Virus record (IMG/VR): IMGVR_UViG_3300003886_000034
Location: 1-30,528 of that record
From: a virus
DNA length: 30,528 bases
Direction: 5' to 3' (one strand)
Shown here: piece by piece, positions 7,112 through 21,212 of the stretch
Numbering within the stretch: the first letter of the stretch is position 1
How the letters are laid out: every line of letters starts with the position of its first letter
Program-made: the position numbers and the translations under genes
The notes under the pieces: model-generated
The model's input: only the letters and a program-made list of their open reading frames with translations
Databases searched by the model: none
Told to the model about the DNA's origin: nothing

Positions 7112-10100
7112 TTAAAATTCTATGAAAGAATCAACAAATAGGCTTTGCTTTGTTGGTGGTTCTTTCTGAATAGCCTTTAAAATGTTATCTAATGGTTTGT
7201 CGACCAACCGAAGTATCTGGGCGTCGTAATCTAATTGTGGTACAAAGTGGTTTGTAAACCAGTCAGGAACAACTTCTATATCTGTCGGTAATGCAATACT
7301 TTTAAATTTACGGACGTGAACACTCTTGTTAACACCATAACTACGACAATGCTGTCCCTTCAAATAATATACCTTGATCTTCATTCCAGATGTGATTGGC
7401 GGACTGACCTTATCGTGGTTCTCCTCTAAACATTGGTTGTAAAAAATTGAGGCCGCTACGTGCCCAGGAAGACGAACAGCACTACCATACAGTTGCAATT
7501 GTTGCAGATAGTATTCAACCTTCTTGACACCTTTTGGGAGACCAATAGCCAACACTTCATTTTGAAGCAGCTCATCCTTATACGCAACAATATCCTCTGC
7601 AATAACATTCCAATCCTCGCCCTTAAGAAAACGTTCAATGAATTTATTCAATTGGGTGGAAATAACTTTCGGCAAGGTAGTCTTCTTTGTATCTAACCCC
7701 ATCACTTTGAGTTTGTCTGTTTTTTTGCCCTCATCATCTACTATATGTAATACGTACCGCTTTTTATCGACAAAAATACCTCGGTCAGAAACGACTTCCC
7801 GTGAAGTGCTAATAATGTTGGAAAAATCGGGTGCACATAGGAAAGTATTTCTCATATATTCAGGAAAAGAACTATTAACAAGGCCACCAACCCTATCAGC
7901 AACAAGAACTGCATCTCTTTCATTTTCAGTATGAGTTTTAAAATAAGACGAATCTGTGTTGTGGACAAGCAAGTCGTTAGCATAAAACATGTGAGTGTCA
8001 CCTACTTCGATATCGTAGACGAATTCAGGAGACTGAATCTCTTCTATGAGAGTGGGTGTAATAAGCGAGAACCCGTTTTGAAGTTCTCTATGCTTAGTTG
8101 GTTTACCGTGTATTACTGGAATATTTCTGTTTTTTTGATCCTGAATAAACCCAATACGATCCCCAAATTTAACTGAATCATATACAGTTAACCGTTTCGT
8201 GTATGTACCTGAATATACACCGTCGAAGGAATTTTCAGTAGTTTCAGTCCAATAATTAGATGGAATTCCACATAGTTTTAATAAACGATTTACACCCGTT
8301 ATAAAATCCATATTAGCTGAACTCACCCCAATAATGTGATTCTTATCAACAAAACCGCCAGCACTAAAGCATCCTGTTAAAAAATGTTCAATGTCTTCAA
8401 TATATTCTTCAGTTAAATTGGGAATTTGTTTTACGTTATTCTTATATAATAAGTTTCGTAAGAATTTCCATCCCTTAACTCCACATAATCGAATATCGTG
8501 TCCACTTCCCACATGAACGATAGAAGTAAACCATCCTTGTTGTATTAACGGAACAATCATCTTTTCGATTATTTCATCTTTATCGTCGCTCCCTAATGAT
8601 AGCCCCACTCCACCCTCTTGTTTACATTCGACATGCCCATCTCCAACCACAAATCCGATTAACTGCCACATTTCTTTGGACAGTTGATGCTTACTATCTT
8701 TAGATGCTTGTGGTAGGTACCCATTAATGATCAAACTATTGGTACCAATGTCAGTCGGTTTAACTTCAACAAACCCTGGTGTTTCCTGCGCCGAATTTGT
8801 ATATCCTATCAATGAATGGTCTTGAGTAACATCTAAATACCGAGTGTTCCCATACCACACCCTATACATTTTTTTGTTAACTTTATGCCTTACGACATAT
8901 TTAATTGGTCTAAATTCGTTTGTCTTTATATCAGCCACGTAAGTCAACGCACACACGGAACATCTGGAGTATTCTTTGGTTCCCTTAACATAATCAATTT
9001 CAGTAAACAAGTCTTCAATTTTAGTACTACCACGCTGAGTTTCAATTACAGTATCACCCGCAACAGAATCACCATATATCAATGATGTGTCGTTTTGGTA
9101 TCCAATGTGAATTTTTGGCAATTTAGTCTTACTGTCAATCCGTTCCTCGCTACGATTTGGCATCATATATTCACCGTCTAGTACTTTTACTGTCTCTGCA
9201 CATTGGTGCAGTAAAATCATACGCCCCGTTCCTGTGGTACTTTCTGCCATACGAAGATCGAAAAACTTGAAATATTTATTCGCTAATGCACCGTAATAAC
9301 TGTTCAGTTTAATTTTATAACAGTACTGAAGACGGTCGTAATATGATACTTTTTGCGTATCCCCCCCATCAAATGCATCTTTTTTCTTTTGTTGATACCC
9401 TTGCCGCGTTTCATACCAATCCTGAAGTATCATCGGCATCACCCCTTTGACCGTTTGGTCGAATACAGTACCATAACCACTAACTGCCCATCTGGAATCC
9501 TTCAGTTTTTTTCTCCAACTGGATGCTGGTAATGTATATTCTTGGCCTCCCTCAAGTACAAGTGTTAGCTCTTCGTCTGAATTTGTTGCAATGAGTTCTG
9601 GAGCTCTCGTGGTTTGATCGAATTGACCTCTAATAGTTTCAGGGCTGATATTAAGTGAACGAATAACACTTGGATATAGAGATTTAATATCAACACTCCC
9701 AATATACTCATGTAACCCAACTTGTGGTAGTAAGACACACGCCCCTTGAATCTTACCACTAGTAAGATTCCCCTCCATATCAAATGCAACTTCGGGTGGG
9801 GGTTTTGAATCAGGAGCAACGACATCTAATTTGTAGTGGCAATAGTTAATTGTCGATTGTTGAGCTAGTGCAATCGTTCCCTGAATATGTTGAAATAATC
9901 CTGTAGATAAATGTACCATTTCATTTGCGAGAGCAACGTACCCAAGCTTGCGTTCGAATCCATGTAGCACTTCTGTATCACGGATGTTGTATCGAACAAA
10001 CATTGGAAAGTTATCACGAAACAATCCGTGCAACGATCCCTCATATTCTAACTTTGGTAATTCTGGAACAACTTCATCAGCGATAGCTTCCAATTTATAT

Positions 10101-11008
10101 GAAGGACGCTCCTCCATTTCAAACTTTCGAAATAATTCCATGTAGTCAAGTTTAACACGTCCGGAAAGATCGAGTGTTACAGCTTCACTACCATACTTTG
10201 TCATCACGCCTCGATAAGGCTTATCTACGTGCATATCTTCTGGAGTTTTTGCATGCATTTCAAAATTACGCATGTCAAAGTTTAACGAACGTAATCCAGA
10301 TTCACCAAGCTTCTTTTTAAGACGTCGGCCGACGTATGGAATGTCAAAGAAGTCACTGTTCCAGCCGGACAAGACATCACTATCCTTAATTTCAACCAGC
10401 AACTTTTCTAATAATTCGGTTTCATCTTTACATATTTGCAGGTCGAATGTCATGTCAACTGGCAACGGTTCTCGAAGGTTAATCTCCTTAAGCAGGGCAT
10501 CCGTCGTCCATTCGGATTCGTGTCGCTCTGCAAGGACCTTATCCTCATGTACTAATGGTGGAACAACCAGAATAACATATTTGTCCAACCAGTCATGATA
10601 AAAAGCAACAGCATTTATAGGAGCGTATGCAGATTCAGCAGTCCGTGGACTGCTGAAGCCTCTGTCTTTATCGTAATCAACCTCAATATCGAAAAACGTT
10701 GTGTGTAATGTAGGAGCGGGAGCTTCGAAGTAATTTTTTGATAGTACTTTTAGTTCAGGACGAATGTCTGACTCAAACAATTCATAATCTTGTTTATAAA
10801 ACTTCCTAGCATTATAGAATTCACTGTTCGACTCAAAGTCACAACGAAGCAATTTGTCACCAAACAAACTTGTGTGCTCCCCATCCTCATGGGGAATATA
10901 GAAGTAGTATGGAGGGTCGTATTCTACTCGCGTGCGACCATCTTTGTTACGCTCCCACACTATTACTTTTTCGACCTTACGATCAAAGACTGCAGAGAGA
11001 TATGACAC
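7112..11008 (-). CDS. 43: Family B DNA polymerase (gp43-like), intein-interrupted
   Basis: The replicative DNA polymerase with proofreading. The precursor is 1298 aa; removing the intein (residues 648-1017) leaves 928 aa, close to T4/RB69 gp43 (about 900). Exonuclease motifs: Exo I TFFDIEVD (D107, E109), Exo II SGWNSDFFDIPY (near 214-225), Exo III YNIRDTEV (340-347). Polymerase motifs: A GSVDIKSLYPS (D440), B KIKLNSYYGAL (566-575), C YGD-TDS split by the intein (Asp647 | Asp1019). The C-terminal peptide KQSLFVDSFIEF resembles the clamp-binding tail of RB69 gp43. The start is GTG, 2 nt after the stop of the DsbA-like gene, so translation is probably coupled. Both catalytic centres look intact. 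Confidence 0.97.
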   Translation of the reverse strand: MSYLSAVFDRKVEKVIVWERNKDGRTRVEYDPPYYFYIPHEDGEHTSLFGDKLLRCDFESNSEFYNARKFYKQDYELFESDIRPELKVLSKNYFEAPAPTLHTTFFDIEVDYDKDRGFSSPRTAESAYAPINAVAFYHDWLDKYVILVVPPLVHEDKVLAERHESEWTTDALLKEINLREPLPVDMTFDLQICKDETELLEKLLVEIKDSDVLSGWNSDFFDIPYVGRRLKKKLGESGLRSLNFDMRNFEMHAKTPEDMHVDKPYRGVMTKYGSEAVTLDLSGRVKLDYMELFRKFEMEERPSYKLEAIADEVVPELPKLEYEGSLHGLFRDNFPMFVRYNIRDTEVLHGFERKLGYVALANEMVHLSTGLFQHIQGTIALAQQSTINYCHYKLDVVAPDSKPPPEVAFDMEGNLTSGKIQGACVLLPQVGLHEYIGSVDIKSLYPSVIRSLNISPETIRGQFDQTTRAPELIATNSDEELTLVLEGGQEYTLPASSWRKKLKDSRWAVSGYGTVFDQTVKGVMPMILQDWYETRQGYQQKKKDAFDGGDTQKVSYYDRLQYCYKIKLNSYYGALANKYFKFFDLRMAESTTGTGRMILLHQCAETVKVLDGEYMMPNRSEERIDSKTKLPKIHIGYQNDTSLIYGDSVAGDTVIETQRGSTKIEDLFTEIDYVKGTKEYSRCSVCALTYVADIKTNEFRPIKYVVRHKVNKKMYRVWYGNTRYLDVTQDHSLIGYTNSAQETPGFVEVKPTDIGTNSLIINGYLPQASKDSKHQLSKEMWQLIGFVVGDGHVECKQEGGVGLSLGSDDKDEIIEKMIVPLIQQGWFTSIVHVGSGHDIRLCGVKGWKFLRNLLYKNNVKQIPNLTEEYIEDIEHFLTGCFSAGGFVDKNHIIGVSSANMDFITGVNRLLKLCGIPSNYWTETTENSFDGVYSGTYTKRLTVYDSVKFGDRIGFIQDQKNRNIPVIHGKPTKHRELQNGFSLITPTLIEEIQSPEFVYDIEVGDTHMFYANDLLVHNTDSSYFKTHTENERDAVLVADRVGGLVNSSFPEYMRNTFLCAPDFSNIISTSREVVSDRGIFVDKKRYVLHIVDDEGKKTDKLKVMGLDTKKTTLPKVISTQLNKFIERFLKGEDWNVIAEDIVAYKDELLQNEVLAIGLPKGVKKVEYYLQQLQLYGSAVRLPGHVAASIFYNQCLEENHDKVSPPITSGMKIKVYYLKGQHCRSYGVNKSVHVRKFKSIALPTDIEVVPDWFTNHFVPQLDYDAQILRLVDKPLDNILKAIQKEPPTKQSLFVDSFIEF
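7958..9067 (-). mobile_element. Intein with LAGLIDADG homing endonuclease in polymerase motif C
   Basis: The insert covers residues 648-1017 (370 aa) and splits YGD|TDS, a known polymerase intein site. It begins SVAGDTVIET (Ser1 nucleophile, block A), has TQDH in block B (Thr728, His731), and ends VYDIEVGDTHMFYANDLLVHN before Thr+1. The penultimate His and terminal Asn needed for splicing are present. Between the splicing halves lies a two-motif LAGLIDADG endonuclease: P1 LIGFVVGDG (783-791, catalytic D790) and P2 LTGCFSAGG (877-885). In P2 the catalytic Asp is replaced by Gly884, so cleavage activity is doubtful. Splicing looks intact and must work for the polymerase to function. Confidence 0.95.
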
Positions 11009-13728: not shown

Positions 13729-14399
13729 TAGTATGTTCCTTGTTTTTTGTAAAAAGTATTTATTCGTTCGAGTAACAGCTCAATATAATTGTCCACTTTT
13801 TCACGGAACATCAACGGCATCATACCTTTCTCAACCGCAATTAACACAACAAAATCGTTTATCTGAACATCAAACAATTCATCGTACATCAGCGCATATG
13901 CAGTACACTGCAATTTATAATCCAGGATCGTCTTGTCATCCTTGTTATTGTTTGATGTCTTAAAGTCAATAATTGACAACACACCATCATATTCGCCAAC
14001 ACAATCAACTCTCCCCGCTGTGCGTAATGAATGGGAATACATTGGGATCTCTTGAGCTCTAATGTTGTTAATTTTATTTAGTCGGAATTTAAGTTGATTG
14101 AACAACTTAATGTTTGCATCAGTGTGACCTTTGGTTGGATTTTCGGTGTTGTTTAAATAATGTTCAGCCATTAAATGAACAGCCTCCCCACGATCACAAC
14201 AACGCTTTGTTTCTCTATCAGCCTTTTTGGGACCAAGTGAATTCCGCCATTCTTCAATGGCCGGTTTTGGTTTGGATCCCAGAATAGTGGTAACAGAAGC
14301 ATACTTCTTTCCTGTAGGCACTGTATACCATCGACCATTAGCGGTAGTCGCAGCCTCCAATTCTTCAAACTGTGGAATGTTGGTGTGTTTAAAGGTCAT
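13728..14399 (-). CDS. PD-(D/E)XK exonuclease, MGME1/RecB-like (223 aa)
   Basis: The start overlaps the homing endonuclease stop by 4 nt (ATGA). The motifs of Cas4/RecB/MGME1-type nucleases are in order: SVTTILG, RGEAVHLMAEHYL (70-82, His75), a Glu in the IRAQEIPMYS strand (E117), AGRVDCVGEYDG (Asp132), IIDFKTSN (Asp145, Lys147) and the trailing Gln-Tyr motif QCTAYAL (Gln164). Such enzymes degrade single-stranded DNA ends in replication or recombination. All catalytic residues appear present. It heads a tightly coupled trio with a 74-aa helical protein and a retropepsin-like protease. I see no Cas4-type Cys cluster. Confidence 0.88.
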   Translation of the reverse strand: MTFKHTNIPQFEELEAATTANGRWYTVPTGKKYASVTTILGSKPKPAIEEWRNSLGPKKADRETKRCCDRGEAVHLMAEHYLNNTENPTKGHTDANIKLFNQLKFRLNKINNIRAQEIPMYSHSLRTAGRVDCVGEYDGVLSIIDFKTSNNNKDDKTILDYKLQCTAYALMYDELFDVQINDFVVLIAVEKGMMPLMFREKVDNYIELLLERINTFYKKQGTY

Positions 14400-15895
14400 A
14401 TATTATGTATACCATATCTGAGATGCCCGCAATCGTATATTCGATACCAATTATTTATGGCAGCATTGCTTTCGGCGGTGAGTTTGGGGTTAAATGCTTT
14501 CAATATCTTTGAAAGTTTGTGTTTTTGAAATGTCTGTCGGGTGATCCTCTTTGTGTTCGCAGTATCTACGTAAAAGAAATTTGGTGTTGTAACTTTTTCC
14601 ATTGTGAACCCGTTCTTAATATACACATCTCCACTTGACCACCGCAGATTAGCGTATGTAAAGATGTAGTCCCAATCTATGGTTCGTTTAAAGTGAGCAA
14701 GTAGCTTCGAAAACCCACCAACAACCGTCACCACCGTCGCATATCGGTTTAATTCGAATACCTTTCCGGGCCGCTGGATGAAGTTAATAACACCAACCAA
14801 CACCGCATCGTGGTACAATCCATAATTAATGCTTCCACACCCGTCACCCTGAATGTGATATTTGTCCAAGAACTTCCGTCTTATGGAGGTTGAAACAGGC
14901 CGTATTGTGCATTTTCTCGCAAACACACTATCATTGGATAGTTTTAGTTGATGTGTGATCTTGGATTTAACGATAGATTTTTTCTGTAACCACTCATCTT
15001 CAAAAATTGTCAACAAATGCACTCCATGATCAGCACATAATAGCTGTTTTCGTTGGTGATACTTGGAGTTAATTCGTGGATGTCGTGTGCTGTGCCAATA
15101 CAACCCACAGTATTCTATTGCGAGCTTATATTCTGGTAAATAAAAATCCAGTTCAAGTGGGCTGATAATCTCCCTATCATTGGTAGTAAAATCCACACTT
15201 TTACAAGTTAGAAAGTCTGAAATCTCTTGCTCTCCAGACGATCGATGGTAGTTGTGTCGGATTTTTATGTCTAGTTCGTTCATTTTCCGCAAAACACAAG
15301 TAGGAGAACATCCAAACCGTATACCAATTTGCTCAGCTGTCATTTTATCATCGACATGAAGTTGGTGAAGAAGGTTTCGGTCAACGTGAATGAGTTTCTT
15401 TGGTCTTGATATTGAATATTTTTTCAAATATCGAAGTACTGTAGTTTTGTTGGTACCCAAATCACTGGCAATCTCTATCGACGACTTATTATTCGTGACA
15501 TATTCATCGGACAACCAGTTCAGATCGTCTAATGTATTATCGAATTGTTGGTGCTTTAGTTTGTAGAGGTTATATTTCTGGATATACTTAGTAATAGTTC
15601 GATGGTGCACACCAAAATGTTTTGCAACTTGTTCAATTGTTTTATTAGCAATTAAGTATTGGTCGTTGAGTTCTGCTTCTGAAATCGTAGTAATGTCAAC
15701 AACCCGCGCATTTGAACGAGATCGAATTGGGATGTTGTGTTTACGGAGATATCGCAGCACCACACTACTAGAAGTACCAACCAATTTAGCGATTTTGTAT
15801 GAACTGAATCGATTATCTATATATTGCGTGGATAACCAATGGATATCATTGAGCAGTGTACTATGTCGTTGCTTTTTTTCCATAAGGTGCCGCAT
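14396..15895 (-). CDS. Vsr-like (EDxHD-type) homing endonuclease with four HTH repeats
   Basis: A 499-aa free-standing homing endonuclease. The N-terminal half holds four helix-turn-helix units (about residues 18-53, 71-110, 122-155, 163-193), each with an IA..LG....V.RYLKK-like pattern. The catalytic core is Vsr/EDxHD-like: PLELDFYLP (Asp230), LAIEYCGLYWH (Glu241, His248), a His/Arg stretch, and LLTIFEDEW (Asp280). The C-terminal domain with RWSSGDVYIKNGF and PNFFYVDT is shared with the second homing endonuclease here. Neither possible start (15895 or 15883) has a ribosome binding site. The gene overlaps the head-protein gene by 35 nt and the nuclease gene by 4 nt, so it appears threaded into an operon. 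Confidence 0.88.
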   Translation of the reverse strand: MRHLMEKKQRHSTLLNDIHWLSTQYIDNRFSSYKIAKLVGTSSSVVLRYLRKHNIPIRSRSNARVVDITTISEAELNDQYLIANKTIEQVAKHFGVHHRTITKYIQKYNLYKLKHQQFDNTLDDLNWLSDEYVTNNKSSIEIASDLGTNKTTVLRYLKKYSISRPKKLIHVDRNLLHQLHVDDKMTAEQIGIRFGCSPTCVLRKMNELDIKIRHNYHRSSGEQEISDFLTCKSVDFTTNDREIISPLELDFYLPEYKLAIEYCGLYWHSTRHPRINSKYHQRKQLLCADHGVHLLTIFEDEWLQKKSIVKSKITHQLKLSNDSVFARKCTIRPVSTSIRRKFLDKYHIQGDGCGSINYGLYHDAVLVGVINFIQRPGKVFELNRYATVVTVVGGFSKLLAHFKRTIDWDYIFTYANLRWSSGDVYIKNGFTMEKVTTPNFFYVDTANTKRITRQTFQKHKLSKILKAFNPKLTAESNAAINNWYRIYDCGHLRYGIHNI

Positions 15896-19537: not shown

Positions 19538-19566
19538 ATTATATTCATCCAGTTGTTAAATGTCAA
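19538..19566 (-). promoter_or_regulatory. Consensus sigma-70 promoter (TTGACA-17-TATAAT)
   Basis: On the minus strand both hexamers match the bacterial consensus exactly, with the ideal 17-bp spacer (-35 at 19561-19566, -10 at 19538-19543). Transcription should start near 19531 and run into the 95- and 96-aa genes. The stop codon of the homing endonuclease upstream lies inside the -35 box. It is the strongest host-type promoter in the window. Confidence 0.92.
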
Positions 19567-21197
19567 CGATTACATATGTATCGTTTGAGTCCACAATTCC
19601 ATATTCGCAGTATATTATTGTTGGCTGTATTTTCAGATTCGCTTAGGGTTTGGTCATACGAATCCCCCAGAAGCCTTTTGAGGTGTTCGTGTCTAAAATT
19701 AAACTTGTGAAAACGTTTCTGCCCAATAATATAACTATAATCCGGTGGTAATATTTTATCAAGCGTAAATCCTGTAGCCTCATATAAATTTCCTTCACTC
19801 CACCGCCGATCAGCAAAAGTAACTATCGAATTCCAAACGTTATGTTTTTTAAAATGTGCCAATAATTTGCCAAATCCACCGACAACTCTCTCACTCGTTG
19901 CAAATCTATTTAACGTATAACAACCATTCTGCTGAACGATAAAGGTAACTGCAGCAACCAGACGTTGACTATTTGTATATAAACCATAAGAAATACTACC
20001 CCGCCCATTTCGTTGAAGATGAAACCGATCAAAGAAGAGTTTTTTATCAACTGATGACAAAGGTGCAACTCTACACTTACGTGCAAAGGTAGCACTGCTG
20101 GATGGTCCACACAGAGCCAACAAAGTCCGCTTTACCTGATCCGGCCGCTGAATCCACTCATCCTCAAATATTGTAATCAAGCGGTACCCTTTTGCATTAC
20201 AATCAAGCAACTTCTGTAGATGGTAGTTGGAGTCAATCCGGGTATGTATGTCAGCATGCCAATATAACCCACAGTATTCAATAGCAATTTTCTTATCAGG
20301 AAGTACTATATCTAACTCCCTTGGTGCAATTATCCGTCGATCCCCTGAGACAACACAATCAACGTTAGATACAAGAAAATTATAAATCTCCGTTTCAGCA
20401 ATTGATTGGTAATAATATTGATGTTCAATATTATGTTTTTTCAAATAAGTCTTGACCATGGTAACACTGACCCCTAACGTATTAGCAATTTGCAATAGGG
20501 GACTCTGCCTAATTACATGTTGATCATACACCCATTGTTTATCATTTAATCGGGTGAACACACTCTCTGGAATATTTACCTGTCTTGGATACACGCACCC
20601 GTATCGATCTAGCATAGTTTGATCTTTTTTATCCTTGACAGTAGGTGATTGCGCTGAGTGAGCAACTCCATACTTACGTAGATTTGTTTGTTTGATCTGT
20701 TCCCTGATTTGGTGGGTTTGGAGGGGGTGTCCACCGTACTTTCTTTCGAAAGTTTCTTTAATTTTTGCTTTAACCTCCACGCTTTGACACGCTCGCCCAA
20801 CACCATATTTTCTGAGATTAGTTTGTTGAATTTTGTTTTTAACATCAGTTGATTGAAATGGGTTGTCTACACCATACCGTTGATTGTTAGTAGTGACCAT
20901 TTTTGCCTGTGTGGCGGAATCGCCACGAGCACACTTCCGACTACAATATTTAGCATACTTTCGAGTAGATTTTTGACGTTTTGTCGTCACAACCTTGCAT
21001 GTTAAACATAGTGGTGGTTGAATTTTATTTTTTAAACAATACAACCGTTCTGACAATGAACTGACAAAGTCTTCAGTAATGAACGGGGTTAGCTTTTCAA
21101 TTATTTGTTTTAAATGTGGATTTTTGTCAACAATAAGCCTTGCATTAGAATTAATCTGATTATCTTTTATTATTCCAAATTTTATTAATTCGTCCAT
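19563..21197 (-). CDS. Vsr-like homing endonuclease with zinc finger and YGV repeats (544 aa)
   Basis: I choose the ATG at 21197 (gagaga just upstream) over the in-frame GTG at 21209. Order of parts: a helical N-terminus; a Cys4 zinc-finger-like block (C64, C67, C85, C89: CLTC...YCSRKC); four repeats of the type RYGV-x-(P)-x-QS-x-V(K)xK (about residues 97-190); one HTH (PLLQIANTLGVSVTMVKTYL); then the same Vsr/EDxHD core as the other endonuclease: PRELDIVLP (Asp286), IAIEYCGLYWH (Glu297, His304), LITIFEDEW (Asp336). The C-terminal RRWSEGNLYEATGF block is also shared. It lies directly behind the helicase gene, 15 nt from its stop. Confidence 0.88.
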   Translation of the reverse strand: MDELIKFGIIKDNQINSNARLIVDKNPHLKQIIEKLTPFITEDFVSSLSERLYCLKNKIQPPLCLTCKVVTTKRQKSTRKYAKYCSRKCARGDSATQAKMVTTNNQRYGVDNPFQSTDVKNKIQQTNLRKYGVGRACQSVEVKAKIKETFERKYGGHPLQTHQIREQIKQTNLRKYGVAHSAQSPTVKDKKDQTMLDRYGCVYPRQVNIPESVFTRLNDKQWVYDQHVIRQSPLLQIANTLGVSVTMVKTYLKKHNIEHQYYYQSIAETEIYNFLVSNVDCVVSGDRRIIAPRELDIVLPDKKIAIEYCGLYWHADIHTRIDSNYHLQKLLDCNAKGYRLITIFEDEWIQRPDQVKRTLLALCGPSSSATFARKCRVAPLSSVDKKLFFDRFHLQRNGRGSISYGLYTNSQRLVAAVTFIVQQNGCYTLNRFATSERVVGGFGKLLAHFKKHNVWNSIVTFADRRWSEGNLYEATGFTLDKILPPDYSYIIGQKRFHKFNFRHEHLKRLLGDSYDQTLSESENTANNNILRIWNCGLKRYICNR

Positions 21198-21212
21198 ACA
21201 ATCTCTCACAAT

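Follow-up and report, generated by a model that had tools for sequence, protein, structure and literature searches.

The window analysed here, a 30,528-base virus record in IMG/VR that represents a single metagenomic contig, carries on its minus strand a T4-like family-B DNA polymerase gene interrupted by an intein (Table 1; insertion points are marked by a slash). The polymerase frame is unbroken, with no frameshift, and its product matches PHROG 262 DNA polymerase (7.3e-149) and the Pfam domains DNA_pol_B (3.2e-27) and exo1 (1.8e-11). The intein has the residues of a class 1 element (Ser1, TQDH, the terminal His-Asn and Thr+1), its junctions read IYGD/TDSSYF, and Pfam Intein_splicing is called at 41.8 bits against a cutoff of 35.8. 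Block B is TxDH in all relatives, with Gln in the window intein where the others have Glu. Given the YxD/TD insertion and the 34–46% full-length identity with phage and archaeal members of the pol-c site family, the element is best explained, from its sequence, as a class 1 intein of the pol-c type (polymerase motif C) that harbours a nested LAGLIDADG homing endonuclease and is carried by a large T4-like phage.

Table 1. Features of the intein-containing polymerase gene and of the free-standing endonuclease genes in the window
Feature	Position	Strand	Remarks
Family-B DNA polymerase ORF (T4-like)	7112..11008	minus	1298 aa with intein, 928 aa after splicing
N-extein, residues 1-647, last residues IYGD	9068..11008	minus	Aligns with inteinless polymerases L149, XacN1, RAS14
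Intein, 370 aa, polymerase residues 648-1017	7958..9067	minus	Inserted YGD/TDS in motif C
Block A, SVAGDT, nucleophile Ser1	9050..9067	minus	
Block B, TQDH (TxxH), residues 728-731	8816..8827	minus	
P1 motif LIGFVVGDG, Asp790 present	8636..8662	minus	Intein-model helix 131-143
Asp790 codon GAT	8639-8641	minus	
Lys860 (intein K213, KxIP), nearly invariant, retained	8429..8431	minus	Conservation in relatives' alignment
P2 motif LTGCFSAGG	8354..8380	minus	Intein-model helix 223-237
Gly884 codon GGC, where second catalytic Asp belongs	8357..8359	minus	Asp in 30/30 relatives
Lys959 (intein K312), nearly invariant, retained	8132..8134	minus	Conservation in relatives' alignment
Block G, C-terminal His-Asn of intein (ends LLVHN), then Thr+1	7958..7963	minus	
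C-extein, first residues TDSSYF	7112..7957	minus	
Free-standing homing endonuclease gene	14396-15895	minus	PHROG 3339; EDxHD/Vsr-like by inspection
Free-standing homing endonuclease gene	19563-21209	minus	PHROG 3339; EDxHD/Vsr-like by inspection

Full-length relatives were recovered from phages (L001, L044, L051–L055, L058 and L060) by scans with the single intein and then with two- and three-sequence alignments, and from archaeal PolB genes (L125–L145). Genome contigs yielded no relatives when scanned with the single intein protein and 24 archaeal loci when scanned with the three-sequence alignment; the plasmid collection gave no match. Wherever the N-terminal junction of a relative was readable, the insertion point was xxD/TD of motif C, usually following YGD or YAD, with M-A-D in L131 and Y-S-D in L142 as variants; L054 has no YGD before the intein, and the first residues of a few archaeal loci were not recovered. 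The phage pol-c inteins L001, L044, L051, L052, L053 and L060 (IMG/VR) share the site and polymerase family of the window intein at 42–46% identity and differ from it in retaining both catalytic Asp residues. The archaeal PolB pol-c inteins of the 389–390-aa Thermococcus type (L125–L127, L130, L134 and L139) share its YxD/TD site and architecture at about 35–40% identity over the full length, but have Asp in P2 and reside in an archaeal PolB gene.

The preliminary description had placed the split at YGD/TDS in motif C with intact splicing ends, and had read Asp790 in P1 and Gly884, encoded by GGC, in P2; the translation bears out both readings. In an active LAGLIDADG enzyme an acid stands at the end of both helices, a place that in P2 is taken here by Gly884. 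Pfam LAGLIDADG_3 is called at intein residues 228–296, and Lys860 and Lys959 are presumably the candidate catalytic lysines of the first and second halves, respectively. In the alignment with other polymerase inteins, a comparison that the preliminary description had proposed, the P2 column holds Asp in all 30 full-length relatives with a readable motif (9 phage and 21 archaeal PolB; typically FLRGLFSADGT), with Gly only in the window and no other acid in that column. The whole-intein tree groups the window intein with L051 at 100% support, and both Asp residues are kept in L051 and L001, the closest inteins by tree or search score. Because every relative, including these two, keeps the Asp, the alignment indicates that its replacement by Gly is a derived change on the window's own branch.

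The GGC codon had also been described as one base from GAC. The codon is as stated, but all nine phage relatives encode the P2 Asp as GAT, two substitutions away. This distance would be weak evidence only, since synonymous sites are saturated at such divergence, the nearest intein being only about 46% identical. It nevertheless bears on the suspicion that GGC stems from faulty sequencing or assembly or represents a minority variant, which we regard as decidedly unlikely: the record is one contig for which neither the intein nor the C-extein as query retrieved a near-identical second record in IMG/VR, but the reading frame is clean throughout, and an error from GAT would have to involve two bases.

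Two relatives depart from the consensus in P1 and have an intact Asp in P2. L054 (4001–5104) reads GNG, Asp to Asn, and L140 (5001–6143) reads GEG, Asp to Glu. Neither was counted as dead. L054 may, from its sequence, be another dead endonuclease, in this case through loss of the opposite half.

An AlphaFold model of the intein built from a 26-member alignment (pLDDT 90, pTM 0.88) has the two helices and the alpha-beta-beta-alpha-beta-beta repeat of the LAGLIDADG fold, and, in intein numbering, Asp143 and Gly237 are the very last residues of its LAGLIDADG helices. The best PDB folds returned by Foldseek were TliVMA, its deletion variant, PhoVMA, PI-PfuI and PI-SceI, with I-DmoI lower down. Gly237 is set in the residues C-F-S-A-G-G-F-V, and the next acid, Asp241, follows four residues on. 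Because Asp241 lies beyond the strand that comes after the helix, there is, judging from residue order and the modelled limits of helix and strand, no obvious replacement in the intein for the lost carboxylate. The modelling, likewise proposed beforehand, thus reveals no substitute acid at the end of the second helix. That the enzyme still cuts both strands, another residue standing in for the missing Asp, is highly improbable; the fold and the remainder of the domain look normal, but no acid lies at or beside the Gly and the acid is invariant in phage and archaeal relatives.

Loss of a catalytic acid with the fold retained in the model likens the window intein to the degenerate endonuclease of PhoVMA from Pyrococcus horikoshii (PDB 7qst; PMC8966425). 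PhoVMA is a natural intein with degenerate LAGLIDADG helices from which the active-site Asp residues are absent, and neither binding nor cutting of its homing site was detected; TliVMA cleaves its homing site and is an active endonuclease (PMC8966425). The two inteins have in common a full HINT plus LAGLIDADG fold, predicted here for the window intein, and a natural loss of Asp, but PhoVMA lacks both Asp residues and has a partly truncated block E, whereas the window intein lacks the second Asp only and its domain is otherwise intact. They also belong to different host genes and different domains of life.

We consider it probable that the intein is splicing-competent and newly homing-dead. Its intact splicing half would excise it to give a functional polymerase; the endonuclease, predicted to be still folded, lacks the metal-binding Asp with which its second LAGLIDADG helix should end, and without that residue it would make no double-strand break, so that the intein would not be copied into empty polymerase genes. 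The element would then represent an early point of the homing cycle, between intact inteins and endonuclease-free mini-inteins. Of the original proposal of a splicing-competent, homing-dead intein in the decay stage of that cycle, the intact ends and the loss of an Asp that all relatives keep hold up, but decay has at most barely begun: the remainder of the domain shows no visible decay, which puts the intein at the very beginning of that stage at most.

Nicking, the alternative offered in the preliminary description, would have the intact P1 half cut one strand, with homing, if any, starting from the nick. The P1 Asp and both conserved Lys residues are retained, single active-site mutations can convert LAGLIDADG enzymes to nickases (PMC3943268), and a PDB entry shows the I-DmoI variant Q42A/K120M together with nicked DNA. 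That variant, however, is altered in a Lys and a Gln and not in an acid, and in LAGLIDADG enzymes one metal ion often serves both active sites (PMC3943268), so that removal of a single acid should impair the cleavage of either strand. Literature searches on PI-TliI and on I-DmoI E117 mutants turned up nothing usable. Nothing speaks positively for nicking, and the selection signal is no greater than in the relatives. Given the shared metal, we think a nickase unlikely and, on this analysis, less likely than a dead enzyme; a natural one-strand cutter that homes from the nick, its domain under selection despite the missing second Asp, is very unlikely.

Since the intein is translated in frame with a presumably essential polymerase gene, stops and frameshifts are not expected to accumulate, and decay was looked for among missense changes. 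Where conservation in the other inteins reaches 88% or more, the window intein deviates at 6 of 35 columns of the endonuclease and 6 of 47 of the splicing part, compared with 5 of 36 and 6 of 48 in L051, which has both Asp residues. The ratio of endonuclease to splicing identity is 0.72 for the window intein and 0.69–0.75 for its phage relatives. On a fixed topology the terminal branch of the window intein has a length of 0.78 for the endonuclease and 0.48 for the splicing part, a ratio of 1.63 within a range of 0.65–2.56 over all tips. Neither the conserved-column and identity comparison nor the branch-length comparison with relatives therefore detected relaxed constraint in the endonuclease domain. 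As the rest of the domain shows no excess change, either the Asp was lost recently or the domain may still be constrained for other reasons; the lack of decay elsewhere is also in keeping with a domain that is still doing something.

One such possibility is that the domain is kept for another role, such as splicing support or DNA binding, or that a free-standing endonuclease, for example the product of either EDxHD-type gene in the window, mobilises the intein in trans. We hold this to be scarcely credible. No relaxed constraint was detected in the domain, and the two free-standing endonucleases are related, at 36% and 33% identity, to the endonuclease lying within the split polymerase of phage vB_PaeM_MIJ3; against this, mini-inteins of the same family manage without an endonuclease domain, and the free-standing genes are 3.4 and 8.6 kb away from the polymerase gene, with nothing pointing to their targets. 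The two free-standing endonucleases share 37% identity over 375 aa, and the gene at 19563–21209 follows a DnaB-like helicase gene at a distance of 3 bases.

The split polymerase inteins of phages PTm1 and vB_PaeM_MIJ3 also reside in motif C of a phage PolB. They were considered as occupants of the window intein's site and rejected, the insertion being two residues downstream (YxDTD/S); they are split, and their two halves flank a separate gene for a Vsr-like or HNH endonuclease. A different intein at this downstream position (YGDTD/S) was seen in many phages (L046, L047 and L065–L123), often split and likewise enclosing a gene for a Vsr-like or HNH endonuclease. Motif C thus has two adjacent sites, YGD/TDS and YGDTD/S, with two types of intein. 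In one contig (IMGVR_UViG_3300021431_000095; L103, 3563–6070, a contig shared with L150) a phage PolB carries two 166-aa mini-inteins in motif C, arranged as IYGD/intein/TD/intein/SAYLTME with two host residues between them. A regular-expression search over all fetched loci returned this as the sole double-intein case; inteins so close together look unusual, and the locus would test splicing of neighbouring inteins.

Mini-inteins and empty sites found at this insertion point in related phages lend weight to the homing-cycle reading of the window intein. The phage mini-inteins L056, L057 and L059 (157–170 aa) share its site and splicing domain but have the endonuclease domain deleted, and Thermococcus mini-inteins at the site (L146–L148, 162 aa) are also without endonuclease. 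L059 pairs with the full-length L060 in the intein tree (99%) and in the polymerase tree (96%), and L057 pairs with the full-length L051 in the intein tree (99%). We infer from these pairings that the endonuclease was deleted at least twice in phages. An empty YGDTDS is found in XacN1, RAS14 and L149, the last being the nearest polymerase (51% identical overall, 60% in the C-extein) and the sister of the window's in the polymerase tree. The nearest inteins (L051 and L057) differ from the nearest relatives of the polymerase, although the polymerase of L051 is partial. To judge from the trees, this mismatch is compatible with movement or loss of the intein, although L149 could be ancestrally empty.

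The homing cycle of inteins is established (PMC1654191), and with PhoVMA the underlying idea is not new. The window intein would add to it a phage example of an endonuclease just after losing a catalytic acid. At a single insertion site across related phages, intact, point-disabled, endonuclease-deleted and empty states all occur, and the pol-c site could serve to test in what order and how fast the endonuclease is lost.
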